Shown: in pieces, positions 36,837 to 63,042 of the stretch
How positions within the stretch are numbered: position 1 is the stretch's first letter
Layout: the number at the start of each line of letters is the position of its first letter
From: Elioraea sp.
GTDB taxonomy: Bacteria; Pseudomonadota; Alphaproteobacteria; Acetobacterales; Acetobacteraceae
DNA length: 64,000 bases
Direction: 5' to 3'
Assembly (NCBI RefSeq): GCF_022842375.1
Contig: NZ_JALHPR010000016.1
Span: 1 to 64,000 of the forward strand
Program-made: the position numbers and the translations under genes
The notes under the pieces: generated by a model
The model's database searches: none
Told to the model about the DNA's origin: nothing
The model's input: the letters and a program-made list of their open reading frames with translations, nothing else

Positions 36837-37226
36837 GTGTCAGAAACAAAAACCGGACCCGGGCCCGAGGCCCGCTTCCGTGCCTTCCTCGCCGAGGGCC
36901 GGTTCATGATCCAGCGGAGTGTCTCGACCGGCACGCACGTGTTCTACCCGCGCGTCGCCGCCCCCGGCACGGGCGAGACCGATTTCGCCTGGGTCGAGGC
37001 GTCCGGCATGGGAACGGTGTATGCGACCACAGTAACGCGGCTTCGCCCCAACGCCGACGGCACGCCGGCTGATTACAACATCGCCATCGTCGCGCTCGAC
37101 GAAGGGCCGCGGATGATGAGCCGCGTCGAGGGCATCGCACCCGACAAGGTGACGATTGGGCTGCGCGTGAAGGCGCGGATCGCCGAGGTCGACGGCGCGC
37201 CCAACCTCCTGTTCGACCCGGCCTGA
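36837..37226 (+). CDS. DUF35-type OB-fold protein without zinc cysteines
   Basis: 129 residues, GTG start. The OB-fold part, FAWVEASGMGTVYATTVTR to DGAPNLLFDP, matches the C-terminal domain of the DUF35 family. These proteins pair with thiolase-like enzymes; in steroid side-chain degradation the pair forms an aldolase. The N-terminal rubredoxin-like zinc ribbon normally carries two CxxC pairs. Here the equivalent positions read QRSVSTGTHVFYPR and VAAPGTGET, and the protein contains no cysteine at all. The thiolase-like gene follows 13 bases later, so the two proteins probably form a complex. First gene of a long operon. Confidence 0.8.
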   Translation: MSETKTGPGPEARFRAFLAEGRFMIQRSVSTGTHVFYPRVAAPGTGETDFAWVEASGMGTVYATTVTRLRPNADGTPADYNIAIVALDEGPRMMSRVEGIAPDKVTIGLRVKARIAEVDGAPNLLFDPA

Positions 37227-37239
37227 GGGGGAACGATCC

Positions 37240-38391
37240 ATGGCGCATACCCTCCGCGGCAAGGCGGCGATCGTCGGCATCGGCACGGCAGGTACCGGCG
37301 AGGCGCCGGGCAGGAGCGCGATCGAGCTCCTCGCCGAGGCATCGATCGCGGCCGTCGCCGATGCCGGCCTCACGCTCGCCGATGTCGATGCGATCTTCAC
37401 CGCGACCTCGGTTCACGCCTTCCCGACGCTGTCGGTCGGTGAATATCTCGGCATCCGCCCGAAGTATTTCGACGGCACCAATGTCGGCGGCTCCAGTTTC
37501 GAGGCGCACCTGCTGCACGCAGCCCTCGCACTCGATGCGGGGCTGTGTGACGTCGCGCTGATCGCCTATGGCTCGAACCAGCGCACGGCGGGGGGCAAGC
37601 TCGTCTCGATGTCGGAGCAACAGGTCTGGGAGGCGCCGTTCAAGCCGCGCCACCCGATCACGGCCTACGCGCTCGCCGCCTCCCGCCACATGCACGAATT
37701 TGGTACCACGCGCGCGATGCTGGGCGAGGTTGCGGTGGCGGCGCGTGCCTGGGCAAACCTCAACCCGCACGCCTTCGCCCGCGGCCCGCTCAGCCTCGAG
37801 GACGTGCTGAAGAGCCGCCTGGTGAGCGACCCGCTGTCGGTCCTCGATTGCTGCCTCGTCACCGATGGCGGGGCTGCCTGCATCATGACGCGGGCCGATC
37901 GTGCGCGGCACCTGAAGCAGAAGCCCGCGTACTTCCTCGGCGGCGCCGGCGCGCAGTGGCACCGCACCATCTCCTCGATGCCCGACCTCACCATCACCGC
38001 GGCATCGGAGAGCGGCCCGCGCGCCTTCGCCCATGCCGGGATGACGCCGGCCGATGTGCATCTCGCGATGCTCTATGACGCCTTCACCATCAACACGATC
38101 CTGTTCCTCGAGGATCTCGGCTTCTGCCCGAAGGGCGAGGGCGGGCGGTTCGTGCAAGATGGTGCGATCGCGCCTGGCGGACGTCTGGCCGTGAACACGA
38201 ACGGCGGTGGGCTGTCCTGCGTCCATCCCGGCATGTACGGCATGTTTCTTATCGTCGAGGCGGTGCAGCAGCTGCGCGGGCGCGCGGGTGAGCGGCAGTT
38301 GCCCACCTGCGATGTCGCGCTCGTGCACGGCAACGGCGGCACGCTCTCGAGCCAGGTGACCGCACTGCTCGGCTCCGACGCCACGCTCTGA
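37240..38391 (+). CDS. Thiolase-like protein lacking the nucleophilic cysteine
   Basis: 383 residues with the thiolase fold of the SCP2/lipid-transfer branch. The position of the acylated cysteine in true thiolases reads FDGTNVGGSSFEAHLL, with glycine-serine instead of cysteine. The C-terminal loops NTNGGGLSCVHPGMYGMF and LVHGNGGTLSS are conserved-looking, including the histidine. Enzymes of this kind paired with DUF35 proteins act as retro-aldolases (for example Ltp2 with ChsH2) or have no known activity, rather than as acetyl-CoA acetyltransferases. GTG of the ligase gene follows two bases after its stop. Confidence 0.85.
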   Translation: MAHTLRGKAAIVGIGTAGTGEAPGRSAIELLAEASIAAVADAGLTLADVDAIFTATSVHAFPTLSVGEYLGIRPKYFDGTNVGGSSFEAHLLHAALALDAGLCDVALIAYGSNQRTAGGKLVSMSEQQVWEAPFKPRHPITAYALAASRHMHEFGTTRAMLGEVAVAARAWANLNPHAFARGPLSLEDVLKSRLVSDPLSVLDCCLVTDGGAACIMTRADRARHLKQKPAYFLGGAGAQWHRTISSMPDLTITAASESGPRAFAHAGMTPADVHLAMLYDAFTINTILFLEDLGFCPKGEGGRFVQDGAIAPGGRLAVNTNGGGLSCVHPGMYGMFLIVEAVQQLRGRAGERQLPTCDVALVHGNGGTLSSQVTALLGSDATL

Positions 38392-38393
38392 GC

Positions 38394-40508
38394 GTGCGGC
38401 ACTTCGCATCGCTCGACCCCCTGGTTGCCCCGCGCAGCATCGCGGTGCTTGGCGCGAGCCAGGACCCGCTGCGCATCGGCGGTCGGCCGATTGCCTACAT
38501 GCTGGCCCGCGGTTTCTCGGGCCCGATCCTGCCGGTGAACCCGAACCGCGACACGGTGCAGGGGCTGCGCGCCTACCCGACGCTCGCCGATGCACCCGGC
38601 GAGGTAGATGCCGCGGTCATCGCCGTGCCGGGGGCGGCTGCGGAACAGGCGGTGGCCGACTGCATCGCCCGCGGCGTGAAGGCCGCGATCATGTTCACCG
38701 CTGGCTTCGCCGAGGTAGACGAGGCGGGAGCCGCGGTGCAGGCGCGCTTCACCGCCGCGGCGAAGGCGGCGGGCATGCGGCTGCTCGGGCCCAACTCGCT
38801 CGGCCTCTTCAACGCGCGGCTGGGCTACTACCCGATCTTCTCCTCCAGTTTCGAGAATGGCTGGCCGAACCTGGGCCGTATCGGCATTGCCAGCCAGTCG
38901 GGCGCCTACGGCACGCATCTCTTCGCCATCGCGCGTGACCGCCGCCTCGGCACGCCCGTCCTCGTCACCACCGGCAACGAGGCTGACGTGACGCTGGGCG
39001 AAGCGATCGGCTGGCTCGTCGAAGACCCCGACACCGACGTGATCGTTGCGTATTCGGAAGGCGTTCGCGACGCGCCCTCCTTCCTCGCCGCGATCGAGAC
39101 GGCGCGTGCGGCGCGCAAGCCCGTGGCGATGATCAAGGTCGGCCGTTCCGCCCTCGGCGCGCGGGCGGCGCAGAGCCATACCGCCTCGATCGCCGGCGAC
39201 GATGCCGTGACCGATGCCGTGCTGCGCGATGCGGGCGTGCATCGCGCGCGCAACACCGAGGAGCTGCTCGACATCGCCGAGGTGGCGGCGCGTCGCATCT
39301 ATCCCGTGGGCAACACGCTTGGCGTCGTCACCATCTCGGGTGGGGCCGGCGTGCTGATCTCCGATGCGGCGGAGGCGGTTGGGCTTGCCATGCCACCGAT
39401 GCCGGCGGAGGCGCAGGCGCGGCTGAAGGCGCTGGTGCCGTTCTGCAACCCGTCCAACCCGGTCGACTGCACCGCGCAGGCGTTCAACGACATGTCGGTG
39501 ATCGGCCGCTTCGCCGGCAGCATGCTGGGCGACGGGGGATACGCGAGCGCGATCGCCTTCTTCACCCAGGTCGGCGCTTCGCGCTCCATCGCGCCTTCGT
39601 TGCGCGAGCAGCTCGATCGCACCATCGCCGCGTTCCCTGACCGACTGTTCGTTCTCTCCGTGACGGGCCCGCCGGAGACGATCCGCGCCTGGCAGGATGG
39701 CGGCTACCTGGTGTTCGAGGACCCGACGCGGGCGGTGAACGCACTCGCCGCGATGGGCCGCTTCGGCGAGGCGTTCTGCCGCCTGCCCGCGGCACCGCTG
39801 CCGTCGCTCGACGAGCCGGCACTTCCCGCGACATCGCCGGATGAGGCAGGGGCGAAGCGGCTTCTCGCCGCCATCGGCATCGCCAGCCCTGAGGAGGAGG
39901 TGTGCACCACTGCCGACGCCGCAGTCGCGGCGGCCGGGCGCCTGGGCTATCCGGTGGTGCTGAAGCTCGTCTCGCCCGATGTGCTGCACAAGAGCGAGAT
40001 CGGCGGCGTCAAGCTCGGGCTTGCCGATGCGGGAGCGGTTCGTTCCGCCCGGGATGAAATCATCGCCGCTGCCGCGCGTCACGCGCCCTTGGCCCGCGTC
40101 ACCGGTGTTCTCGTCTCGCCCATGCTCACCGGCGGCGTCGAATGCGTGATCGGTGTTGCTCGCGACCCCGTGTTCGGCCCCGTTGCGATGGTCGGGCTTG
40201 GCGGCATCTTCGTCGAGGTGATGCGCGACGTTGCCTTGCGCCTCTGCCCGTTCGGCGAGGCGGACGCGGAGGCGATGATCCGTTCCTTGCGCGGCTTCCC
40301 GCTGCTCGATGGCGCGCGCGGGCGACCGCGAATGGATGTGCCTGCGCTGGCTGACGCGCTCTCGCGCCTTTCGCGCTTCGCCGCCGCTGCCGGGCCGAGG
40401 CTCGCGGGTGTCGAGGTGAATCCGATCATGGTGCTGCCGAAGGGGCGCGGCGCCATCGCACTCGATGCCGTCATCACGCTGGAGGAGCACGATGCCACTC
40501 GATCCTGA
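38394..40508 (+). CDS. ADP-forming acyl-CoA ligase (acetate-CoA ligase family)
   Basis: 704 residues, GTG start. The domains run in order: CoA-binding (about 1-130, SIAVLGASQDPLRIGGRP), succinyl-CoA ligase-like with the phospho-histidine loop QSHTASIAGDDAV near 260, and ATP-grasp (from about 480, GYPVVLKLVSPDVLHKSEIG, then VGLGGIFVEVMRDVALRLCP). Such fused ligases make acyl-CoA from an acid, CoA and ATP, releasing ADP. The acid is unknown; operon context suggests activation of the pathway substrate. Its last 17 bases overlap the next gene. Confidence 0.88.
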   Translation: MRHFASLDPLVAPRSIAVLGASQDPLRIGGRPIAYMLARGFSGPILPVNPNRDTVQGLRAYPTLADAPGEVDAAVIAVPGAAAEQAVADCIARGVKAAIMFTAGFAEVDEAGAAVQARFTAAAKAAGMRLLGPNSLGLFNARLGYYPIFSSSFENGWPNLGRIGIASQSGAYGTHLFAIARDRRLGTPVLVTTGNEADVTLGEAIGWLVEDPDTDVIVAYSEGVRDAPSFLAAIETARAARKPVAMIKVGRSALGARAAQSHTASIAGDDAVTDAVLRDAGVHRARNTEELLDIAEVAARRIYPVGNTLGVVTISGGAGVLISDAAEAVGLAMPPMPAEAQARLKALVPFCNPSNPVDCTAQAFNDMSVIGRFAGSMLGDGGYASAIAFFTQVGASRSIAPSLREQLDRTIAAFPDRLFVLSVTGPPETIRAWQDGGYLVFEDPTRAVNALAAMGRFGEAFCRLPAAPLPSLDEPALPATSPDEAGAKRLLAAIGIASPEEEVCTTADAAVAAAGRLGYPVVLKLVSPDVLHKSEIGGVKLGLADAGAVRSARDEIIAAAARHAPLARVTGVLVSPMLTGGVECVIGVARDPVFGPVAMVGLGGIFVEVMRDVALRLCPFGEADAEAMIRSLRGFPLLDGARGRPRMDVPALADALSRLSRFAAAAGPRLAGVEVNPIMVLPKGRGAIALDAVITLEEHDATRS

Positions 40509-41352
40509 CTGGCTGCTCCGCTACCCGATCCCCGAGGTGAGCGAGACGCGCACGCGCAAGGACACGATGCTCTACGCGCTCTCCATCGGCCTCGGGCACG
40601 ACCCGATGGACGATTGGCAGCGCCGTTTCGTGACAGAACCGAAACTCCTGGCGTTGCCGACCATGGCCGTCGTGCTCGGCTATCCCGGCTTCTGGCTCGG
40701 CAGGCCCGACACGGGGGTGGATGCGACGCGGCTTGTGCATGGCGAGCAGTCGATCATCCTGCACCGCCCGCTGCCGGTGGAGGGAGCGGTGATTGGCCGC
40801 TCGCGCGTGACCGGCCTGGTCGATCGCGGCGCGGGCAAGGGCGCGCTGCTCTATTCCACGCGCGAGGTGTTCGATGGCGATGGCAACGCGCTCGCCACGC
40901 TCGACAGCACGACGTTCCTGCGTGGCGATGGCGGCTTCGGTGGTGCCGCGGGCCCGGTGAAGCAGCCGCACCCGATCCCCGATCGTGCGCCGGACGCGAC
41001 GCTCTCGCTCGGTACGCGGCCGGAACAGGCACTGCTCTACCGGCTCAACGGTGACCTCAACCCCCTGCACGCAGACCCCGCCGTCGCTGCCAAGGCGGGG
41101 TTCCCGCGCCCGATCCTGCACGGGCTCTGCACCATGGGGGTGGTGGGCCACGCGCTCGTCCGGCTCTGCTGCGCCGGCGCTCCGGAACGGATGCGACGGC
41201 TCGACCTTCGCTTCTCGGCCCCCGTGTTCCCGGGCGAAACGATCGTGACGGAGGTGTGGGAGGAGGGGCCTGGCCGCTTCGCCTTCACCGCGCTGGTGGC
41301 CGAGCGCGAGACAATGGTCATCAACAATGGCCTCTGCGAGGTGTCGCCGTGA
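40492..41352 (+). CDS. MaoC-like dehydratase, double hot-dog
   Basis: 286 residues. The C-terminal hot-dog domain has the hydratase 2 motif YRLNGDLNPLHADPAVAAKA and GFPRPILHGLCTMG, with the catalytic Asp and His. The N-terminal half is a second, degenerate hot-dog including the YALSIGLGHDP segment. Family members hydrate 2-enoyl-CoA to 3-hydroxyacyl-CoA of the R form, often for branched or bulky acyl groups. It complements the crotonase-type hydratase later in the operon, which would yield the S form. The ATG overlaps the ligase end by 17 bases. Confidence 0.88.
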   Translation: MPLDPDWLLRYPIPEVSETRTRKDTMLYALSIGLGHDPMDDWQRRFVTEPKLLALPTMAVVLGYPGFWLGRPDTGVDATRLVHGEQSIILHRPLPVEGAVIGRSRVTGLVDRGAGKGALLYSTREVFDGDGNALATLDSTTFLRGDGGFGGAAGPVKQPHPIPDRAPDATLSLGTRPEQALLYRLNGDLNPLHADPAVAAKAGFPRPILHGLCTMGVVGHALVRLCCAGAPERMRRLDLRFSAPVFPGETIVTEVWEEGPGRFAFTALVAERETMVINNGLCEVSP

Positions 41353-42044
41353 TCGACAAGTTCGTCCGCTCCACAGCGGAGGCGCTCGCGGGCGTGAGGA
41401 GCGGGGCGACGATCCTGATCGGCGGGTTCGGCCAGGTGGGAACGCCCAACGCACTGATCGAGGCGCTGTCGGAGGCTGACCTGCGCGACCTCACCGTCGT
41501 CTGCAACAACGCGGGCACGGGAACGCACGGGCTTGCGCGCGTCATGGCCGAGGGCCGCGTGGCGAAGATCATCTGCTCCTATCCGCGCAGCGCAGGCTCG
41601 GTCGTGCTCGAGGAGCTGTACCGCGAGGGCAGGATCGCGCTCGAGATCGTGCCGCAGGGAACGATCGCGGAACGGTTGCGCGCGGCGTCGGCCGGGCTTG
41701 CCGCATTCTACACGCCGACCGGCGTCGGCACGGCACTCGCCGAGGGCAAGGAGACGCGGGAGTTCGATGGACGCACCTACGTCCTCGAACACGCGCTGAA
41801 GGGCGATGTGGCGCTGATCGAGGCCTGGTGCGCGGATCGGTGGGGCAACCTGACCTATCGCCGCGCAGGCCGGAACTTCAACCCGGTGATGGCGATGGCC
41901 GCCGACCTCACGATCGCGCAGACGCAAACCGTGGTGGAGCTCGGCGCCCTCGACCCCGAGGCGATCGTCACCCCTGGCGTGTTCGTGGACCGTGTCGTGC
42001 ATATCCCCTACGGTGAGCCGGATCTCGGCAAGCCCCTCTATTGA
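41349..42044 (+). CDS. CoA transferase subunit A
   Basis: 231 residues, GTG start overlapping the previous stop. SGATILIGGFGQVGTPNALI is the family I CoA-transferase alpha signature, and NNAGTGTHGLARVMAEGRV and ALIEAWCADRWGNLTYRR are also typical. With the B subunit it moves CoA between acids such as succinyl-CoA and a 3-oxoacid. It groups by motif with 3-oxoacid/3-oxoadipate CoA-transferases; the actual acceptor is unknown. Confidence 0.9.
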   Translation: MIDKFVRSTAEALAGVRSGATILIGGFGQVGTPNALIEALSEADLRDLTVVCNNAGTGTHGLARVMAEGRVAKIICSYPRSAGSVVLEELYREGRIALEIVPQGTIAERLRAASAGLAAFYTPTGVGTALAEGKETREFDGRTYVLEHALKGDVALIEAWCADRWGNLTYRRAGRNFNPVMAMAADLTIAQTQTVVELGALDPEAIVTPGVFVDRVVHIPYGEPDLGKPLY

Positions 42045-42057
42045 TGGGAGTGGACCG

Positions 42058-42717
42058 ATGGACGCGATCATTGACGCAAAGCCGCTGAACCGCCCGCAGA
42101 TGGCAGCGCGCGTGGCCGCCGACATTCCCGAGGGCTGGGTGGTCAATCTCGGCATCGGCATCCCCACCCTGGTGGCTGACCATGTGCCCGAGGATCGCGA
42201 GGTGATCTTCCACAGCGAGAACGGCGTCATCGGTGTCGGGGCCGCGCCGGCGGACGATGCGCGCGACCCGTGGCTGATCAATGCCGGCAAGCAGCACATC
42301 ACGCTGCGCGCGGGCGGCGCCTATATGCACCACGCCGACAGCTTCGCGCTGATCCGCGGCGGGCATCTCGACCTCTGCGTGCTCGGCGCCTTCGAGGTGG
42401 CGGTGAACGGCGACATCGCGAACTGGTCGACCGGCGCAAACGAGAAGGCACCGGCCGTCGGTGGAGCGATGGATCTCGCCGCTGGTGCCAGGCGACTCTG
42501 GGCGGTGATGGAGCACACGACGAAGGATGGCCGCGCGCGGCTCGTGCAGCGCTGCTCCTACCCGCTGACCGCGCTCGGTGCGGTCAAGCGTATCTACACC
42601 AACCTCGCGGTGATCGACGTAGCACCCCACGGTTTCGTCGTGCGCGAGATGATCGCGGGCATGACGCTCGACGCATTGCAGGCGCGGAGCGACGCGAAGC
42701 TCCACCTTCCGGCATGA
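42058..42717 (+). CDS. CoA transferase subunit B
   Basis: 219 residues. WVVNLGIGIPTLVADHVP is the beta-subunit signature, and HSENGVIGVG carries the catalytic glutamate E54 that forms the enzyme-CoA thioester. Because that glutamate is present, this is a real transferase and not a ring hydrolase of the IpdAB kind, which lacks it. The ATG lies 13 bases after subunit A. The stop overlaps the dehydrogenase start. Confidence 0.9.
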   Translation: MDAIIDAKPLNRPQMAARVAADIPEGWVVNLGIGIPTLVADHVPEDREVIFHSENGVIGVGAAPADDARDPWLINAGKQHITLRAGGAYMHHADSFALIRGGHLDLCVLGAFEVAVNGDIANWSTGANEKAPAVGGAMDLAAGARRLWAVMEHTTKDGRARLVQRCSYPLTALGAVKRIYTNLAVIDVAPHGFVVREMIAGMTLDALQARSDAKLHLPA

Positions 42718-43826
42718 CGGCCCCAGATGCGATGGGCGTGGCGGATGATCGCGCCGACGGCATCCGCCTGCTGCGCGACAGCGCTGCGGCAATCGTCCCG
42801 CGCGGTGGCCCGCTCGGGCGCATCCGCGCGCTGCGTGACACCGAGGCGGGGTTCGACCGCGCCGTTCTCGGCGAGATGGGGGCGTTTGGCTGGCTCGGCC
42901 TTCGCGTGGCGGATGAGGCGGGCGGTGTCGGGCTTGGCATGGCAGAGCTCTGCGCCCTGGCCGAGGAGATGGGACACGGGCTGGCGCCGGAGCCGCTCGT
43001 CGCGGTTGCTGCCATCGCCGCCCCCCTGGTGCCGGAGGAGGATGTGATCGCCGGCGTGCGCGTGCTGCTGCCTGCCTGGGCCGAGCGGCCGCACACGCTT
43101 GACCCCGCCGGCACGACGATGGCCGCGATCGATGGCGCGACGCTGCGCGTGACAGGGCGAAAGATCGCCATTCCGATGGCAGCGGGGGCGGATGGCTTCC
43201 TGGTCACGGCGCGGGAGGGCGATGCGCTCTCCGTCGTCATCGTCGAGAACGGCGCGCCTGGCGTCACGCTCACGGTCGAAGCCACCGTCGATGGCGGGCA
43301 CATGGGAACGCTCACGCTCGAGGCGGCACGCTGCGTGCGCGTGGCCGAGGATGCCGGGCCCCGCATCGCGCGGCTGCTCGACGAGGCGGCGGTGGCGACG
43401 GCCGCCGAGCTCGTCGGCGTGATGGACCGTGCATTCGCGCTGACGCTCGACTATCTCGGCACGCGCCAGCAATTCGGCAAGCCGATCGGGTCGTTCCAGG
43501 TGCTGCAGCACCGCGCGGCCGACCTCAAGATCCAGATCGAGCTCTCCCGTGCGGCGGTGGGCCATGCAGCGGCGGTGTGCGATGCGTCCGCGCCCGCGGC
43601 GCAACGATCCGCCGCCGTATCGCTCGCGAAGGCGCGGGCATCGGATGCGGCGATGCTCGTCACCCGGCAGGCGATCCATCTCCATGGCGGCATCGGCTAT
43701 ACCGACGAGGCGGATATCGGCCTGTTCCTCCGCCGCGCCATGGTTTTGGCCGCGAGCTGCGGTACGGCCGCGGCGCATCGCCGCCGCTATGCCGCCGCCG
43801 CACCGCCGCTGGATCTTGACGCATGA
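42714..43826 (+). CDS. Acyl-CoA dehydrogenase, small-subunit type
   Basis: 370 residues, ACAD fold. The N-terminal domain contains GWLGLRVADEAGGVGLGMAE, and the C-terminal FAD part contains TRQQFGKPIGSFQVLQHRAAD and QAIHLHGGIGYTDEADIGLF. That last motif, without the YEGT glutamate of medium-chain enzymes, is typical of the smaller partner in two-subunit dehydrogenases (FadE28 or PimD style). The middle beta domain is short on the usual FAD/acyl contacts. It probably works with the large-type ACAD two genes downstream. Overlaps the CoA-transferase and hydratase genes at both ends. Confidence 0.88.
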   Translation: MTAPDAMGVADDRADGIRLLRDSAAAIVPRGGPLGRIRALRDTEAGFDRAVLGEMGAFGWLGLRVADEAGGVGLGMAELCALAEEMGHGLAPEPLVAVAAIAAPLVPEEDVIAGVRVLLPAWAERPHTLDPAGTTMAAIDGATLRVTGRKIAIPMAAGADGFLVTAREGDALSVVIVENGAPGVTLTVEATVDGGHMGTLTLEAARCVRVAEDAGPRIARLLDEAAVATAAELVGVMDRAFALTLDYLGTRQQFGKPIGSFQVLQHRAADLKIQIELSRAAVGHAAAVCDASAPAAQRSAAVSLAKARASDAAMLVTRQAIHLHGGIGYTDEADIGLFLRRAMVLAASCGTAAAHRRRYAAAAPPLDLDA

Positions 43827-44596
43827 TCGCGACGGAGCCCGTGATCGTGTCGCGTGACGGTGCGATCGTCACGCTCACGCTGAACTGGCCTGAGCGGCGC
43901 AATGCCCTCTCCGTCGCAATGCGGCACCGGCTCGCCGATGCGATCGAGGAGGCGGAGGCTGACCGGTCGGTGCGAGCGCTCATTCTCACCGGCACGGGCG
44001 AGCATTTCTGCGCCGGCGGCGACCTCACCGGCATGCATGTCGAGAGCGTCGCCGAGGGGCGGGAGCGGATGCGCCATGCGCACCGGCTCATCCGCCTGAT
44101 GGTCGGCGCGCGCATGCCCATCGTCGCTGCCATCGAGGGGTGGTGCGCAGGGGCCGGTATCTCGCTCGCCTGCGCGTCGGATCATGTCGTTGCGGGGGCA
44201 GAGGCGAAGTTCCTCGCGAGCTTCGGCAAGGTCGGCCTGCTGCCCGACCTCGGGCTTCTGCACACGCTGCCCGCGCGCGTCGGCCAGGCGCGGGCGCGTG
44301 AGATGCTGCTGTTCGCCGAGGCGCTTGACGCGCCGCGTGCCGAAGCCGTCGGCCTGGCTGACCGCGTGGTGCCGTCGGGCACGGCACTCGCGGTCGCGCG
44401 CGAGCGAGCCGCGGTGCTCGGTGCGCTGGCGCCGATGACGCTGGCCTTGACGAAGGCGGTGCTGGCCGACGGACTGGAGGAGGCGTTGGCGCGCGAGCGT
44501 GACCTGCAATCGGCGCTCTATCTCACGCCTGACCATGCCGAGGGCAAGGCGGCGTTCCTGGAGAAGCGCCCACCCCGTTTCGGAGAAGGATCGTAG
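43823..44596 (+). CDS. Enoyl-CoA hydratase/isomerase family protein
   Basis: 257-residue crotonase. The oxyanion-hole strands are ALSVAMRHRLADAIEEAE followed by GTGEHFCAGGDLTGM, and IEGWCAGAGISLACASDHVV. One of the two catalytic acidic positions is clear at LPDLGLLHTLP; the other is not obvious, so isomerase or other crotonase chemistry is possible. It lies between the two ACAD genes and overlaps the first. Confidence 0.88.
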   Translation: MIATEPVIVSRDGAIVTLTLNWPERRNALSVAMRHRLADAIEEAEADRSVRALILTGTGEHFCAGGDLTGMHVESVAEGRERMRHAHRLIRLMVGARMPIVAAIEGWCAGAGISLACASDHVVAGAEAKFLASFGKVGLLPDLGLLHTLPARVGQARAREMLLFAEALDAPRAEAVGLADRVVPSGTALAVARERAAVLGALAPMTLALTKAVLADGLEEALARERDLQSALYLTPDHAEGKAAFLEKRPPRFGEGS

Positions 44597-44597
44597 C

Positions 44598-45767
44598 ATG
44601 AACGAGATGATACGTTCCGAGCCAGGCGACCTGGACGCGCTTCCCGACGATGCCTTCCGCGCCCATGTGCGCGCCTGGGTGCAGGCGAGCTGCCCGCCCG
44701 AGCTGCGCCACCCGCCGAAGCGGCTGCACTGGTCCGAGACGAAGCCCTGGTACATGGCGCTCGCCAAGCAAGGCTGGCTGGCGCCTGGCTGGCCGCGCGA
44801 GCATGGGGGCCTGGGCCTGTCGCCCGCCAAGCAGATCATCTTCATCGAGGAGATCGAGCGTCACGGCGCGCCCCGCACCAACGACATGGGTGTGACGATG
44901 ATCGGCCCGCTCCTCATCCGCTACGGCACCGATGCGCAGCGGGAACGGTTCCTGCCGCGCATCCTCGCCGGCGAGGACATCTGGTGTCAGGGCTACTCCG
45001 AGCCCAACGCAGGCTCCGATCTCGCGAGCCTGCGGACCGAGGCCGTGCTGGAGGGCGACCACTACGTCGTCAACGGGTCCAAGATCTGGACGACGCTTGC
45101 CGATGACGCGAACTGGATCTTCCTGCTCGTGCGCACCGACCGCGCCGCGAAGAAGCAGGACGGGATCTCGTTCCTGCTGGCGCCGATGGACAGCCCCGGC
45201 ATCATCGTGCGCCCCATCGTCACGCTCGACCGGCATGACGAGTTCTGCGAGGTGTTCTTCGACAACGTGCACGTGCCGGCCGGGAACCTGGTGGGAGAGC
45301 CCAACAAGGGCTGGTCGATGGCCAAGGCGCTGCTCGGCTTCGAGCGCATCTTCCTTGGCTCGCCCAAGCAATCGACCTACGCGCTGGCCAAGCTCGCGCA
45401 GGTGGCCGAGCACATGGGCGTGGCCGACGACCCCGTGTTCGCCGACCGGTTCACGCGGCTGCGCATGGACCTCGACGACCTGAAGGCACTCTACGAGACG
45501 CAGGTGGCGAAGCTTCGCCGCGGCGAGGAGCTTGGCCCCGACGTTTCGATGCTGAAGGTGTGGCAGAGCGAACTCTACCAGCGCATCGCCGAGACGGCGT
45601 TCGAGATCGCCGGCGAGGAGGGCGTGATGCTGAACCCGATCGGCGGCAACCGCGCGCTGAACCCGGCGGCCGCGTTCATCCAGAGCCGTGTCGTCTCGAT
45701 CTATGGCGGATCGAACGAGATCCAGCGCAACATCATCGCCAAGAACGTTTTGGGACTGCCGGGGTAG
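44598..45767 (+). CDS. Acyl-CoA dehydrogenase, large-subunit type
   Basis: 389 residues. FAD/acyl-binding strands read GYSEPNAGSDLASLRTEA and VNGSKIWTTLADDANWIFLL. The C-terminus reads VVSIYGGSNEIQRNIIAKN, with glycine where MCAD-type enzymes have their catalytic glutamate (YEGT). This form matches the larger partner of heteromeric ACADs (FadE29, PimC), which place the base elsewhere. It follows the hydratase stop by one base. With the small-type ACAD it would introduce the double bond for the hydratases. Confidence 0.9.
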   Translation: MNEMIRSEPGDLDALPDDAFRAHVRAWVQASCPPELRHPPKRLHWSETKPWYMALAKQGWLAPGWPREHGGLGLSPAKQIIFIEEIERHGAPRTNDMGVTMIGPLLIRYGTDAQRERFLPRILAGEDIWCQGYSEPNAGSDLASLRTEAVLEGDHYVVNGSKIWTTLADDANWIFLLVRTDRAAKKQDGISFLLAPMDSPGIIVRPIVTLDRHDEFCEVFFDNVHVPAGNLVGEPNKGWSMAKALLGFERIFLGSPKQSTYALAKLAQVAEHMGVADDPVFADRFTRLRMDLDDLKALYETQVAKLRRGEELGPDVSMLKVWQSELYQRIAETAFEIAGEEGVMLNPIGGNRALNPAAAFIQSRVVSIYGGSNEIQRNIIAKNVLGLPG

Positions 45768-45775
45768 GAACGATC

Positions 45776-47173
45776 ATGACACAGCTTTGGGCGCTATCCG
45801 CGGCCGCGCAGGCGCACGCCATCCGCACGCGCAGCGTCAGTGCGCGCGAGGTCGTCTCTGCCGTCCTGGCGCGGCATGCGGCGACGCATCGCGCGATCAA
45901 CGCCGTCATCGAGATGCGCGCCGACGAGGCACTCGCCGCCGCCGATGCGGCGGACGCGGCCGTTGCGCGCGGCGAGATGCTGGGGCCGCTGCATGGCGTT
46001 CCCGTCACCATCAAGGTGAATATCGACCAGGCAGGCTACGCCACCACCAACGGTGTCGTTGCGTTCAAGGACCAGATCGCGGCGGGCGACAGCCCCGTCG
46101 TCGCCAATCTCCGCCGCGCCGGCGCGATCCCAATGGGACGGACGAACACGCCCGCCTTCAGCTACCGCTTCTTCACCGACAATGCGCTGCACGGCCGCAC
46201 GCTGAACCCGCGCAACCCGGCGCTCACGCCTGGCGGATCGTCGGGCGGTGCGTCGGCCTCGGTTGCCGTCGGTGTCGGCTCGATCGCGCATGGCAACGAT
46301 CTCGGCGGCTCGATCCGCTATCCTGCCTATGCGGTCGGCGTTGCCGGCATCCGCCCGAGCTTCGGGCGCGTGCCGGCGTTCAACGGCACGTCACCGGAGG
46401 AGCGGCCGATCACGCTACAGATGATGAGCGTGCAGGGCCCGCTTGCGCGGACGGTTGGCGACCTTCGCCTCGGCCTTGACGCGATGGCGCAGCCTGATGC
46501 GCGCGACCCCTGGTACGCTCCCGCGCCGCTCGATCTTCCACTCCCGCCGCGGCCCTGGCGCATCGCCTTCTCGACGCTCGGCGCCGATGCCCCCGTCGCT
46601 GCCGCGCTCCGCCAGGCTGCTGCCTGGCTCGCTGATGCCGGCTGTGCGGTCGAGGAGATCTCGCTGCCGCGCTTCGAGGAGGCGGCTGAACTCTGGCGCG
46701 GCCTGATCATGACGGAGGGTGATCGTGCCATGGTGCCGATCATCGAGAAATACGGCGATGCGGGGCTCAAGGCGGCCTATGGCGGGTGGGCCGCGAACGT
46801 GTCGCCGCTCGACGCCACGGCCTTCGCGGTCGGGCTCGCGAAGCGCACGGCGATCTGGCGGGAGTGGAGCGTGTTCCTCTCGGCCTATGCCGCGGCGTTG
46901 CTGCCCGTCTCGCTCGAACCACCCTTCCCGCAGGACCTCGACCAGCTTGGGGCGGAGGGTGGTGCGCGCATCCTTCGCGCGCAGGCGCCGCTCTACGTGT
47001 TCAACCTGCTCGGCCTTCCTGGCCTCTCTGTGCCGACGGCAACCGTGCATGAGGCCATCCCGCTTGGCGTGCAGATCGTCGCCGCCCGGTTCCGCGAGGA
47101 CATCTGCCTGACCTTGGGCGAGATCATCGAGGCGCGGGCGGGCGTGACGGCGCCGATCGATCCGGTATCATGA
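45776..47173 (+). CDS. Amidase signature family enzyme
   Basis: 465 residues. The Ser-cisSer-Lys triad is intact: lysine in PVTIKVNID near residue 80, serine in GGSSGGASASVAVG near 155, and the nucleophile in GNDLGGSIRYPA near 179. It hydrolyses an amide to acid plus ammonia. GatA function is unlikely because no gatB or gatC is nearby and the C-terminus differs. Placed at the end of the acyl-CoA operon, eight bases after the dehydrogenase, it could release the acid that the ligase activates. Confidence 0.9.
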   Translation: MTQLWALSAAAQAHAIRTRSVSAREVVSAVLARHAATHRAINAVIEMRADEALAAADAADAAVARGEMLGPLHGVPVTIKVNIDQAGYATTNGVVAFKDQIAAGDSPVVANLRRAGAIPMGRTNTPAFSYRFFTDNALHGRTLNPRNPALTPGGSSGGASASVAVGVGSIAHGNDLGGSIRYPAYAVGVAGIRPSFGRVPAFNGTSPEERPITLQMMSVQGPLARTVGDLRLGLDAMAQPDARDPWYAPAPLDLPLPPRPWRIAFSTLGADAPVAAALRQAAAWLADAGCAVEEISLPRFEEAAELWRGLIMTEGDRAMVPIIEKYGDAGLKAAYGGWAANVSPLDATAFAVGLAKRTAIWREWSVFLSAYAAALLPVSLEPPFPQDLDQLGAEGGARILRAQAPLYVFNLLGLPGLSVPTATVHEAIPLGVQIVAARFREDICLTLGEIIEARAGVTAPIDPVS

Positions 47174-48408: not shown

Positions 48409-49368
48409 CTATTCCGGCTTGATGCCAGCCTCGCGCACCACCCGCGCCCAGGTCTCGGTCTCGGCCGCGAGCAGCGCGCCAAGCGCCTCGGGCGAGGAGG
48501 CTTCGAGCGTGATGCCACGCCGCGCGAAATCGGCCTTGAGCGTGGCATCGCCCATGGCCGCGACCACGGCACGGTTCAGCCGCGCGACGATGGGCGCAGG
48601 CGTCGCTGCCGGAACGAAGATCCCCTGCCAGAACTCCACCGCGTAGCCGGGGAGGGAGGCGGCCTCGGCCACCGTCGGCAGGTCGGGCGCTGCCGGGCTG
48701 CGGGCGGGAGAGGTGACGGCGAGGCCGCGCAGCTTGCCCTCCTGCACGAAGGGTAGCGCCTCGAGGATGGCGAGGAAGATGACCGGCACGCGGCCGGCGA
48801 TCACGTCAGCGGAGGCCTGGGCACCGCCACGATAGGGGATGTGGCCGAACTGGATGCCCGCGCGTGCGGCGAACAGTGCGCCCGCGAGGTGGTTCAGCGA
48901 GCCGACGCCCGTGCTCGCCTGGTCGATGCTGCCGGGGGCTGCGCGCGCGGCGGCGATCAACTCCGGCACCGTACGGAAGGGCGTGGCGGGGTTCACCGCG
49001 AGGATGAAGGCGCCGCGCGCGACCATCGAGACGGGTGCGAAATCCCGCTGCGGCGCATAGGCGAGCGTGGCCTGCAGCGCCGGGTTCACCGCGAGCGAGT
49101 TGATGCCCATCAGCAGCGTGTAGCCATCCGCCGACACGCGCGCGGCGTGCTGGTAGGCGACGTTCGCGCCCGCGCCGGGCCGATTGTCGATCACGATCGG
49201 CTTGCCGAGATCGGCCGCCATGCGGTCCGCCACCGCGCGGCTGATCGCGTCGGTCGTGCCGCCCGGCGGCAGCGGCACGATGAGGGTGAGCGGGCGTGTC
49301 GGGTAGTCCTGCGCCAGAGCGGGTACCGCGATGATCAGGGCAAGCAGGGCACCGGCTATTCGCTTCAT
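48409..49368 (-). CDS. Tripartite tricarboxylate transporter receptor (Bug family)
   Basis: 319 residues with a Sec signal MKRIAGALLALIIAVPALAQ. Bug signatures are PLTLIVPLPPGGTTDAISR, VIDNRPGAGANVAYQHAA and NHLAGALFAARAGIQFGHIPY. These periplasmic proteins bind carboxylates or similar small acids and hand them to TctA/TctB. No TctAB is in the window, so it may share a distant transporter or act as a sensor. It is the last gene of a Bug-RraA-Bug operon, overlapping rraA by ATGA. Confidence 0.92.
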   Translation of the reverse strand: MKRIAGALLALIIAVPALAQDYPTRPLTLIVPLPPGGTTDAISRAVADRMAADLGKPIVIDNRPGAGANVAYQHAARVSADGYTLLMGINSLAVNPALQATLAYAPQRDFAPVSMVARGAFILAVNPATPFRTVPELIAAARAAPGSIDQASTGVGSLNHLAGALFAARAGIQFGHIPYRGGAQASADVIAGRVPVIFLAILEALPFVQEGKLRGLAVTSPARSPAAPDLPTVAEAASLPGYAVEFWQGIFVPAATPAPIVARLNRAVVAAMGDATLKADFARRGITLEASSPEALGALLAAETETWARVVREAGIKPE

Positions 49369-50073: not shown

Positions 50074-51039
50074 TCATTCCACCTTCGCGCCTGAAGCCCT
50101 TACCACCGGCCCCCACTTCGCGCTTTCCGTCGCGACGAAGCGCGCGAACGCCTCGCCCACCAACGGGGTGGGCGTTACGCCAAGGTCGCGCAGCCGCTGC
50201 GCCACGGCGGGGTCGTTCACTGCCGCCGCAACCGCTGCCTCAAGCCTGGCGGCGACTGGGGCGGGAAGGCCGGCAGGTCCGATGATGCCGAGCCATGAGC
50301 CGGCGTCGAAGCCCGGGATGGTCTGCGACACGCGCGGCAGCTCGGGAGCGAGGTGGGATGGCTCGACAGTCGTCACGGCGATCGCGCGCACCTTGCCCTC
50401 GCGGGCGAGTTGAGCCCCCGTCACCATCGTGTCGACCATGAGCTCGACCCGGCCTGCCACGAGATCCGGGATCGCCTGGCCGGAGCCGCGATAGGTGACG
50501 GCGGGGATGTCGAGGCCGGCAGCGGTCTTGAGCATCTCCATCGCGAGGTGCTGCGAGGTGCCGGAGCCGGTCGACGCGTAGGAGAGCTTGCCCGGGTTCG
50601 CCTTTACGTACGCGATGAGGGAAGCAAGGTCAGTTGCCGGAACGGATGGGTGCGCGACGAGGATGTTCGGCAGCACGCCGACGAGGCCGATGAAGGCGAA
50701 GTCCTTGTCGGGGTCGAACGGCAGCCTGGCGTAGAGATGCTTGTTGATCGAGAGGATCGAGACCGAGCCAGTCCCGAGCGTATACCCATCGGGTGCGGCG
50801 CGGGCGACGGCCTCGGCGCCGATATTGCCGCCCGCACCCCCGCGGTTGTCGACCGCTACCGTCTGGCCGAGCGTGCGGCCCATGTGGTCGGCGACCAGCC
50901 GGGCCATCACGTCCGACGATCCGCCGGGCGCGAAGGGGACGATCATGCGGAGCGGTCGTGTCGGAAACTGGGCCTGCGCGGATGCTGCGCACGGCAGCGT
51001 CAGGGCTGCCGTCGCGCCGATGAATGTGCGGCGATCCAT
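50074..51039 (-). CDS. Tripartite tricarboxylate transporter receptor (Bug family)
   Basis: 321 residues. The N-terminus MDRRTFIGATAALTLPC has a twin-arginine pattern, so Tat export is possible. Bug motifs are MIVPFAPGGSSDVMARL, AVDNRGGAGGNIGAEAVA and HLAMEMLKTAAGLDIP. The open frame continues 66 codons upstream but lacks a signal there, so the ATG at 51039 is preferred. First gene of the operon with rraA four bases downstream. Confidence 0.92.
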   Translation of the reverse strand: MDRRTFIGATAALTLPCAASAQAQFPTRPLRMIVPFAPGGSSDVMARLVADHMGRTLGQTVAVDNRGGAGGNIGAEAVARAAPDGYTLGTGSVSILSINKHLYARLPFDPDKDFAFIGLVGVLPNILVAHPSVPATDLASLIAYVKANPGKLSYASTGSGTSQHLAMEMLKTAAGLDIPAVTYRGSGQAIPDLVAGRVELMVDTMVTGAQLAREGKVRAIAVTTVEPSHLAPELPRVSQTIPGFDAGSWLGIIGPAGLPAPVAARLEAAVAAAVNDPAVAQRLRDLGVTPTPLVGEAFARFVATESAKWGPVVRASGAKVE

Positions 51040-51261
51040 TTCCTTCCTCCCGGGGAATTCGTTGCGGGAGGAAGCGTCCGCCGCGCGGACCGCCTCGTCA
51101 AGCGCGGGCGGCGCCGCCCGAGGCTGTCCGAGAACCCGCTGCCGTGAGTCGTGTGGCGCGGTTTTCGAGGCCCGGCGCGCAGCGGCCCCAAGGGCCGTGA
51201 GCACCGGAAGCACAGGAAACCAAAGCCAGACGGCCACGGCAGCTAGGATTGTCAGGCAGTC

Positions 51262-55902: not shown

Positions 55903-56871
55903 ATGATCCGACGACGCACGCTGCTTGGCACCGCTGCCATGGGCCTCGCCTGCCCCGCCCTCGCGCAGGCCTATCCGACGCGGCCGGTGCGAATCATCGT
56001 TCCCTCCGCTCCCGGCGATGGCGGTGACAGCATCGCACGCCTCTACGCGCACTCCCTCGAGCGCAGGTTCGGCCAGGGCTTCGTGATCGAGAACCGCACG
56101 GGAGCAGGCGGGCGCATCGGCACCGAGGCTGCCGTGCGCGCGGCGGCCGACGGCTACACGCTGGTGATGGGCAATGCCGGCAGCCATGGCATCAACGCAG
56201 CGCTCTACCGCACCCTTCCCTACGACATCGCACGCGACTTCCAGCCGATCAGCCTGCTGGTCGAGGCGCCGAACGTTCTCGTCGTGAACAAGGCGAAGCT
56301 GCCGGTCGCTGACGTTGCCGCGCTGATCGCCAAGGCTAAGGCCGATCCCGGCGGGCTCAACTACGCCTCCGGTGGTCCTGGCACCTCGGCGCACCTGACG
56401 ATGGAGCTGTTCAAGTCACTCGCGGGCGTCGACCTTCAGCACGTGCCTTTCCGCGGCGCGGGCCCCGGGCTCCAGGCGCTGGTGTCGGGAGAGCCGCCGG
56501 TGATGTTCGTGAACCTTCCCCCCGCCATGGCCTTCATCCGCCGCGGCGAGCTCCAGGCGCTTGCCGTCACCTCGGCCGCGCGCACGCCCGATCTGCCCGA
56601 CGTTCCGACGGTGGCCGAGAGCGGACTTCCCGGCTTCGAGACGATCGCCTGGTTCGGGCTGCTGGCACCTGCGGGAGTACCGCGCGCGGTGGTCGATACG
56701 CTGCACGCCGCCTGCGTCGAGATCTCGGGGATCCCCGACGTGGTCGAGAAGGTGCGGCTGATCGGCGGCTTCCCGCGCGCCAGCACACCCGAACAGTTCC
56801 AGGAGCGCATCGTCGCCGACATCGCCAAGTGGCGGCGCCTCGTTGCGGAGAAGAACCTGGCGCAGGAGTAG
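55903..56871 (+). CDS. Tripartite tricarboxylate transporter receptor (Bug family)
   Basis: 322 residues. The signal MIRRRTLLGTAAMGLACPAL has a Tat-like twin arginine. Bug motifs are VRIIVPSAPGDGGDSIARL, VIENRTGAGGRIGTEAAV and HLTMELFKSLAGVDLQHVPF. The PSAPGDGGD loop departs from the usual PPGGxxD, suggesting a different ligand. Likely operon with the enolase-superfamily gene five bases downstream, so the ligand may be that enzyme's substrate. Confidence 0.92.
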   Translation: MIRRRTLLGTAAMGLACPALAQAYPTRPVRIIVPSAPGDGGDSIARLYAHSLERRFGQGFVIENRTGAGGRIGTEAAVRAAADGYTLVMGNAGSHGINAALYRTLPYDIARDFQPISLLVEAPNVLVVNKAKLPVADVAALIAKAKADPGGLNYASGGPGTSAHLTMELFKSLAGVDLQHVPFRGAGPGLQALVSGEPPVMFVNLPPAMAFIRRGELQALAVTSAARTPDLPDVPTVAESGLPGFETIAWFGLLAPAGVPRAVVDTLHAACVEISGIPDVVEKVRLIGGFPRASTPEQFQERIVADIAKWRRLVAEKNLAQE

Positions 56872-62070: not shown

Positions 62071-63042
62071 TCAGTCCAGCTTTATTCCCCGCGCGGTGAT
62101 CACCCCGCCCCAGAGCGCCGTTTCGCGCGTGAGCCATTCCCGGAAGCTTGCCGGCCCGTCAGTGCGGATGTCGGCGCCGAGATTGGCAAGCCGCGTCGCG
62201 GTCGCCGGCTCGCGCATCGCCGTGGCGAAGGCGGTGTGGAGCTGGTTGATGATCGCCTCCGGCGTTCCGGCCGGTGCGAGAAGCCCCTGCCAGATGCCGC
62301 TCTCGGCAGCAGGCCAGCCAAGCTCGCCGAAGGTCGGCACGTCCGGCAGGTCCGCCAGCCGCCGCGGGCCGGTGACGGCGATGGCGCGCAGCCGCCCGTC
62401 CTTCACGAAGGGCAGCGTCGCGGTGGCACCATTGACGATCATCTGGCTCTCGTTCGCGACGGCTGCCTGGATGCCTTGCATGCCGCCGCGATAGAACACC
62501 TCCGTCACCTCCGTGTGCCAGTGCTGCACGACGACGATCGCGGTGAGGTGGTTCACGGCACCCACGCCCGAATGGGCAAAGTTGATCTTCCCCGGATTGG
62601 CCTTCGCGTAGGCAACCAGCTCGGCTGCGGTGTTCGCGGGCACGGAGGGGTGAACCGCCATGATGTAGGGCGCGTAGATCAGCATCGTCACCGGGGCGAG
62701 ATCGGTCGCGGGATTGTAGGTCAGCTTCGAGAAGAGGGCGGGCGCGGTCGTCAGGATGCCCGGGTCGGTCAGCAGCACGGTGGCACCATCGGGGGCTGAC
62801 TTCGCGACATGGTCGGCGCCCAGGTTCCCGGCCGCCCCGCCGCGATTGTCGACCACGACAGGCTGGCCGACCAGGCGCGCGAGGTCGTTCTGCACCAGCC
62901 GCGCGATCAGGTCGGAACTGCCGCCAGGCGGGAAGGGAACGACGATCCTGAGCGGGCGGGTCAGCGGCTGCGCTGTCGCCCCTCCGGCTGCAAGCAGGGC
63001 AGGGAGCGCGAGTGCGGCGCGACGCGAGAAAGCGTTCGTCAT
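62071..63042 (-). CDS. Tripartite tricarboxylate transporter receptor (Bug family)
   Basis: 323 residues. The signal MTNAFSRRAALALPALLAAG has a twin-arginine start. Bug motifs are IVVPFPPGGSSDLIARLV, VVDNRGGAAGNLGADHVA and NHLTAIVVVQHWHTEVTE. The start overlaps the mannonate-dehydratase-like stop, so the two are coupled. It probably captures a sugar acid or related carboxylate used by that enzyme. Confidence 0.92.
   Translation of the reverse strand: MTNAFSRRAALALPALLAAGGATAQPLTRPLRIVVPFPPGGSSDLIARLVQNDLARLVGQPVVVDNRGGAAGNLGADHVAKSAPDGATVLLTDPGILTTAPALFSKLTYNPATDLAPVTMLIYAPYIMAVHPSVPANTAAELVAYAKANPGKINFAHSGVGAVNHLTAIVVVQHWHTEVTEVFYRGGMQGIQAAVANESQMIVNGATATLPFVKDGRLRAIAVTGPRRLADLPDVPTFGELGWPAAESGIWQGLLAPAGTPEAIINQLHTAFATAMREPATATRLANLGADIRTDGPASFREWLTRETALWGGVITARGIKLD

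Follow-up and report, generated by a model that had tools for sequence, protein, structure and literature searches.

The window, i.e., the whole stretch of 64,000 nucleotides of DNA analysed here, encodes a thiolase-fold protein, P0001, without the nucleophilic cysteine. Judged from its sequence, P0001 is probably the catalytic subunit of a DUF35-dependent thiolase-fold retro-aldolase (C-C lyase) with a Tyr-His pair. This reading has computational support from the residue pattern, the fold, the phylogeny, the partner gene and the operon, and the best reading is that P0001 works like Ltp2 and Sal while being a member of neither family. By its residues, the active site of P0001 does not support the annotation as acetyl-CoA acetyltransferase. 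The gene and the codons of interest are:

37240 to 38391, plus strand: P0001, thiolase-fold protein without nucleophilic Cys, proposed retro-aldolase; ATG start, TGA stop, 383 aa
37477 to 37506, plus strand: codons of TNVGGSSFEA, residues 80-89; the codon of Gly84 (thiolase Cys column) is 37489-37491
38074 to 38085, plus strand: codons of YDAF, Tyr279-Phe282; Tyr279 has the catalytic base position of Ltp2 and Sal (roles: PMC12329534, partial text)
38224 to 38226, plus strand: codon of His329, the thiolase GHP histidine, aligned with Ltp2 Tyr344 and Sal Gln352

Family assignment

By score, P0001 is a full member of NF004811/PRK06158 'acetyl-CoA acetyltransferase' (658.2 bits, cut-off 421), and it matches Pfam PF22691 Thiolase_C_1 with 229.7 bits at a gathering cut-off of 28. 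The strict NF004811 cut-off is passed by 17 of 398 sampled genomes of the phylum. A reading of the DNA made from the letters alone had expected the label acetyl-CoA acetyltransferase and had called it unsupported; NF004811/PRK06158 indeed gives exactly that name, public records name relatives of P0001 acetyl-CoA acetyltransferase or thiolase, and Gly84 in the Cys column together with YDAF in place of the HDCF/NEAF motif bears out the objection. The nearest solved chains by sequence are 4u4e ("Thiolase"), 9myr (Sal) and 6ok1 (Ltp2), followed at greater distance by benzoylsuccinyl-CoA thiolases and archaeal thiolases. The host genome encodes three ordinary Cys thiolases at other places, all of which keep NEAF, and this rules out P0001 as the sole thiolase of the host genome.

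Active-site residues

P0001 was aligned with Sal, Ltp2, IpfD, 4u4e and one archaeal Cys-bearing thiolase, 7yvy (EAACASGG), and the nucleophile column falls on Gly84, so that the active-site loop TNVGGSSFEA at residues 80-89 lacks the thiolase Cys, as the sequence-only reading had stated. That reading had also described the C-terminal loops as kept, which is correct for His329 (SCVHPG) and for the glycine loop HGNGG at residues 363-367, but the HDCF-type histidine is replaced by Tyr279.

The pattern was followed in the best 80 of 585 confirmed loci, a sample leaning to close relatives, in which the orthologs are 57-78% identical to P0001. G83, G84, Y279, D280, A281, F282, H329, P330 and G366 are each found in 80 of 80 sequences (P0001 and 79 orthologs), G367 in 79 and R193 in 77 of these best 80 of 585. 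As 80 of 80 orthologs share the pattern (best 80 of 585 loci), sequencing error, pseudogene formation and chance are ruled out. R193 was aligned by eye with Sal Arg216, a CoA contact in Sal (PMC12329534, partial text). Alignment A2 contains 79 of the 80 genome loci and four paralogs; L095, in which the gene is split in two frames, was omitted.

Among 194 aligned homologs, a Cys at the nucleophile column occurs in 13, and residue 279 is then His (12) or Gln (1). Gly occupies this column in 175, with Tyr at 279 in 172 of them, and the remaining six show a different letter or a gap at position 84. Within the 172 Gly/Tyr rows, 154 combine Ala or Ser at 281 with a letter at 329, and this letter is His or Tyr in 152 of them. 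Neither Ala nor Ser at 281 can provide the acid that Sal uses. As the rows are related and not independent, these figures are to be read as counts and not as probabilities.

Fold and phylogeny

The AF2 model of P0001, built from alignment A2, has a mean pLDDT of 92.4 and a pTM of 0.93. In VIA-align, the model is tied between Sal 9myr (Z 54.1, rmsd 1.8, 373 aligned), 4u4e (53.6) and Ltp2 6ok1 (53.2). TbSLP reaches Z 53.0, and archaeal, acyltransferase, BbsB and SCP2-type rows range from 52 to 44, with 6esq nearest at 51.9; classical thiolases score at Z ~37. Function is not given by the fold alone.

An IQ-TREE phylogeny was calculated from 51 of the 194 aligned rows, picked to represent clades, with the catalytic columns removed and the root placed by choice on the Cys rows. 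It separates 41 Cys-free rows, 39 with Gly and 2 with Glu, from the 10 Cys rows with support of 100/100. P0001 falls into a clade of 21 rows (99/96), which all have Y-D-A/S-F and His and include 4u4e. The sister of this clade comprises 16 rows with Sal, Ltp2 and IpfD (97/92), and the node uniting the two is supported at 87/91. This placement in a sister clade rules out P0001 as a true ortholog of Ltp2 or Sal. A FastTree phylogeny of 115 rows agrees, and the IQ-TREE phylogeny is the one relied on because the catalytic columns were included in the FastTree calculation.

Comparison with known systems

The closest solved protein, 4u4e, is a putative thiolase from Sphaerobacter thermophilus with 52.7% identity to P0001 over 383 columns. 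It shares the clade, the GGSS loop, HPGMYG and the Tyr-Asp-x-Phe motif (YDSF), and differs by Ser for Ala281 and Tyr for Cys327. A literature search for 4U4E with thiolase found no function or publication for it.

Ltp2 from T. curvata acts as an aldolase together with ChsH2(DUF35) (6ok1), and the Tyr of its YDHF motif is the base and Tyr344 the acid (PMC12329534, partial text). For CtSal, which acts with Shy(DUF35) (9myr), it was reported that Tyr302 and Cys304 of YDCY are essential and that Gln352 corresponds to Ltp2 Tyr344; Gly replaces the thiolase Cys, from which the authors excluded thiolysis (PMC12329534, partial text). P0001 shares with both the fold, the Gly in the Cys column, the tyrosine of the YDxF/Y motif (Tyr279, equivalent to Sal Tyr302) and the presence of a DUF35 gene, at 34-36% identity, while the second catalytic residue, Tyr344 of Ltp2 or Cys304 of Sal, is absent. 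Compared with Ltp2, P0001 has YDAF instead of YDHF and His329 instead of Tyr344; compared with CtSal, it has Ala281 at the position of the acid Cys304 and His329 instead of Gln352. The Ltp2 system acts on a steroid C3 substrate and has a zinc ribbon in the partner, and the partner of CtSal has a C3H1 zinc finger (PMC12329534, partial text), whereas the partner of P0001 is without zinc Cys. The sequence-only reading had put forward a retro-aldolase role like that of Ltp2 as an alternative to thiolysis. The fold, the base tyrosine, the DUF35 partner, the phylogeny and the operon type speak for this proposal, but the second catalytic Tyr is His329, the His of YDHF is Ala281, and P0001 lies in a sister clade.

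The third system is IpfD/IpfE of the ibuprofen pathway, with IpfD picked on plasmid pIBU218 by its place beside dioxygenase genes, as the record says hypothetical protein. Like P0001 it has YDAF, a Gly in the Cys column and an OB protein encoded next to it; it differs by Tyr at the His329 column, with 37.6% identity to P0001. IpfD acts after a ring dioxygenase and not after a hydratase; in the pathway a retro-aldolase splits a dihydrodiol-CoA into propionyl-CoA and 4-isobutylcatechol, and an ipfD insertion mutant does not grow on ibuprofen; the ipfDE product is also called a thiolase in the same paper (PMC9195938, partial text). A second, Ltp2-like protein (YDHF and Tyr) with its own OB gene lies ~11.5 kb from IpfD on pIBU218 (L144:938-2092). 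Two of the thiolase-like enzymes studied here, each with its own OB gene, are encoded ~10 kb apart on the Sulfitobacter sp. SK025 plasmid L143 (19875-21026 and 29519-30664), and 23 of 28 listed Sulfitobacter and Pseudosulfitobacter plasmids have five or six tblastn places per record.

The DUF35/OB partner gene

The gene directly upstream of the P0001 gene encodes a DUF35 protein:

36837 to 37226, plus strand: DUF35/OB-fold partner protein (PF01796, OB_ChsH2_C); GTG start, 13 nt before the P0001 gene, Pfam E 3.2e-20

Its best solved relatives are ChsH2(DUF35) 6ok1_B and the Shy DUF35 protein 9myr_B, and P0001 is proposed to work together with it. A DUF35 gene lies next to the enzyme gene, in the same orientation, in 74 of the best 80 of 585 loci, in 69 at most 200 nt upstream and in five fused, and an HMM search finds a partner anywhere in the locus in 76 of these 80. 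No DUF35 match was found in L086, L091 and L099 despite full flanks (three of the best 80 of 585), which speaks against the retro-aldolase reading. The other non-adjoining cases are L102, which begins at the enzyme gene, L094, where the DUF35 gene is only found 8 kb away, and L095, where it lies 402 nt before the larger piece of the split gene.

The fusions, from Limnohabitans and other Comamonadaceae, are single open frames with the order DUF35-linker-enzyme (L078, L083, L085, L089 and L104). Their coordinates are L078:3634-5256, L083:651-2270, L085:6135-7757, L089:9533-11155 and L104:9545-11155, and their zinc cysteines are intact. The AF2 model of the L089 fusion, built on five near-identical rows, has a pLDDT of 30.7 and carries no information on docking.

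In the partner from the window all four zinc-ribbon Cys are lost, the positions being S28, T31, A42 and T45. Among 77 partner sequences including this one, 47 have four Cys, 27 have none and three have one. Every partner of the enzymes that are at least 70% identical to P0001 (ten loci, from L031-L110) is without the zinc motif.

The operon around P0001

The partner and P0001 genes open a run of ten genes (36837 to 47173), in which neighbouring genes overlap slightly or lie no more than 13 nt apart and which continues as follows:

38394 to 40508, plus strand: acyl-CoA synthetase of the ADP-forming type (Pfam CoA_binding_2, Succ_CoA_lig, ATP-grasp_5; 8wzu 4-hydroxybutyrate-CoA ligase (ADP-forming))
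40492 to 41352, plus strand: enoyl-CoA hydratase of the MaoC/MFE-2 hydratase-2 type (PF01575, PF22622; 7mku enoyl-CoA hydratase 2); second in-frame ATG at 40465
41349 to 42044, plus strand: 3-oxoacid CoA-transferase subunit A (TIGR02429 above cut-off)
42058 to 42717, plus strand: 3-oxoacid CoA-transferase subunit B (TIGR02428 above cut-off)
42714 to 43826, plus strand: acyl-CoA dehydrogenase, nearest solved chain 6wy8_A (Tcur3481)
43823 to 44596, plus strand: crotonase-fold enoyl-CoA hydratase/isomerase (PF00378)
44598 to 45767, plus strand: acyl-CoA dehydrogenase, nearest solved chains 4x28_A and 6wy8_B (Tcur3483)
45776 to 47173, plus strand: amidase (PRK07487), final gene of the run, also final in the same-genus operons L186 and L187

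The two dehydrogenases each match one subunit of the heteromeric 6wy8. The structures 6wy8 and 4x28 are of heteromeric steroid dehydrogenases, so that the gene layout is comparable to the removal of steroid side chains by dehydrogenase, hydratase and aldolase in this order, and by analogy the operon resembles steroid side-chain operons with a ligase, two dehydrogenases, a hydratase and a putative DUF35-aldolase pair. A Pfam search of the ten operon genes recognised no steroid ring-degradation gene. Speculatively, the 3-oxoacid CoA-transferase could act on a free 3-oxo acid formed by aldol cleavage. Scattered downstream of the operon, the window encodes several putative periplasmic binding proteins, by eye TctC/Bug-like, at 48409-49368, 50074-51237, 55903-56871 and 62071-63042.

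All ten genes occur in identical order in two genomes of the same genus (L186, L187); in conservation, the thiolase-like gene ranks first in one of them (93%) and second in the other (86%). More distant relatives contributed seven further stretches, of which three are complete short contigs (8-15 kb); these stretches have fewer of the ten genes, five of them OB and enzyme only. The OB, enzyme, synthetase, MaoC and dehydrogenase genes recur on an Actibacterium plasmid and on a P. aeruginosa plasmid. The P. aeruginosa locus tags are PA1015-PA1025, and the synthetase there has the name PauA. In the literature searched on these P. aeruginosa genes, including the partial texts of PMC10033279 and PMC9894557, no function of the thiolase-like gene was found. 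Relatives of the window genes were looked for in 52 loci with a length of 17 kb or more and were found for OB in 47 (by blast; HMM finds more), AcD2 in 44, ECH in 36, MaoC in 29, AcD1 in 19, synthetase in 13 and CoA-transferase A in five. The near-constant companion is thus the OB gene and not the whole operon, and with MaoC in 29 of the 52 loci the hydratase step may not extend to every member.

Proposed reaction and alternative explanations

In the proposed mechanism, the CoA thioester of a carboxylic acid would be formed first; the paired acyl-CoA dehydrogenases would then desaturate it, and the MaoC protein would add water. The resulting beta-hydroxyacyl-CoA would be bound in the cleft of P0001, where Tyr279 would remove the proton of the beta-hydroxyl group, so that the alpha-beta bond breaks and a ketone or aldehyde is released. 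His329, in place of Ltp2 Tyr344 or Sal Cys304, would then protonate the enolate to yield acetyl-CoA or propionyl-CoA. No acyl-enzyme would be formed because the Cys column holds Gly84. The residue pattern suggests that His329 is the likely acid, but it is the ordinary thiolase histidine and could serve another reaction. The substrate is probably a branched, cyclic or dicarboxylic acid and not a steroid in particular.

It is unlikely that P0001 acts after all as a thiolase or retro-Claisen enzyme, in a beta-oxidation like that of MFE-2/SCPx, in which an SDR would oxidise the hydroxyacyl-CoA and P0001 would cleave the 3-ketoacyl-CoA, with a Cys next to His329 as acceptor or by direct attack of CoA or water. 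The kept His329 and the MFE-2 type hydratase of the operon agree with such a route, as does Cys327 or Cys328, which flanks His329 in 78 of 80 orthologs (best 80 of 585 loci), and the Cys found one position earlier, at 326, in the related L013-type rows. Cys327 or Cys328 is also a candidate for the active-site cysteine elsewhere in the protein that the sequence-only reading had named as an objection to its own proposal, and it counts against the retro-aldolase reading. However, neither Cys327 nor Cys328 is present in L045, L092, 4u4e and the L011-/L012-type sequences, nor in Sal, Ltp2 and IpfD; Gly in place of the nucleophile and Tyr in place of the HDCF histidine occur in 80 of 80 (best 80 of 585 loci), and the P0001 clade is sister to known aldolases. 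An SDR match is found in the orthologous operons in 34 of the 52 loci with 17 kb or more, at 55% identity or above in 20 of these, and its nearest solved relatives are the MFE-2 type (3R)-hydroxyacyl-CoA dehydrogenases 2et6, 1zbq and 1gz6, which fits a 3-ketoacyl-CoA and thiolysis and speaks against the retro-aldolase reading. The 64-kb window gave no SDR match, whereas a 64% identical copy is encoded on contig C4 of the host genome beside another dehydrogenase and another synthetase and, by eye, also near a TRAP transporter. This copy could feed 3-ketoacyl-CoA to P0001 or could serve other chain-shortening rounds, as hydroxyacyl dehydrogenases do in steroid pathways.

That P0001 is a non-catalytic or differently acting subunit, e.g., a scaffold of the DUF35 complex, a decarboxylase or an acyltransferase, is considered improbable. 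The thiolase fold also serves in acyltransferases (the PhlC, MucABC and CsATase rows of VIA-align), and the Cys-free relative TbSLP was reported to be known only for a very slow malonyl-CoA decarboxylation (PMC12329534, partial text), but the full invariance of Y279, D280, F282 and H329 in 80 sequences (best 80 of 585 loci) argues for catalysis, and the genes around P0001 form a degradative operon. It is very improbable that P0001 belongs to the Ltp2 or Sal family as a true steroid side-chain aldolase and has its place in the breakdown of sterols or bile acids. The fold, the base Tyr, the DUF35 partner and the ChsE-like dehydrogenases would agree with it, yet the identity to Ltp2 and Sal is 34-36%, the clade is separate, the second catalytic residue differs and the ten operon genes include no recognised steroid ring-degradation gene.

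Classification and implications

With the retro-aldolase as the preferred reading, it is an evenly balanced proposal that P0001 and the 4u4e clade constitute a third, mostly non-steroid class of thiolase-fold retro-aldolases, with Tyr279 as base and His329 as acid. Members of this clade are found in Pseudomonadota, Actinomycetota, Bacillota and S. thermophilus, in many cases beside a DUF35 partner that has lost its zinc ligands, and are filed as acetyl-CoA acetyltransferase or thiolase. The sequence family of P0001 and one crystal structure are already public. In the literature searched, PRK06158 by name included, no biochemistry for the P0001 clade was found, nor its assignment to a third version of the active site.

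As NF004811 names these proteins acetyl-CoA acetyltransferase and public records use this name or thiolase, reconstructed pathways would contain a thiolysis step for which the active site gives no support. Should the aldolase reading be true, many degradative operons gain a C-C cleavage for acids that are not oxidisable to a 3-ketone, and one fold would have three acid-base solutions, Tyr-Tyr, Tyr-Cys and Tyr-His. P0001 is a possible non-steroid aldolase scaffold.

Further residue combinations were observed outside the orthologs. In the thiolase-like paralogs L094:10342-11478, L099:6906-8039 and L086:5996-7117, Glu stands in the Cys column, the motif is YDGF, and Arg replaces the GHP histidine. 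More distant relatives have YDCF with His (L153, L154, L156), YDNF with Tyr (L155, L157, L158) and YENF with Tyr (L164, L169).
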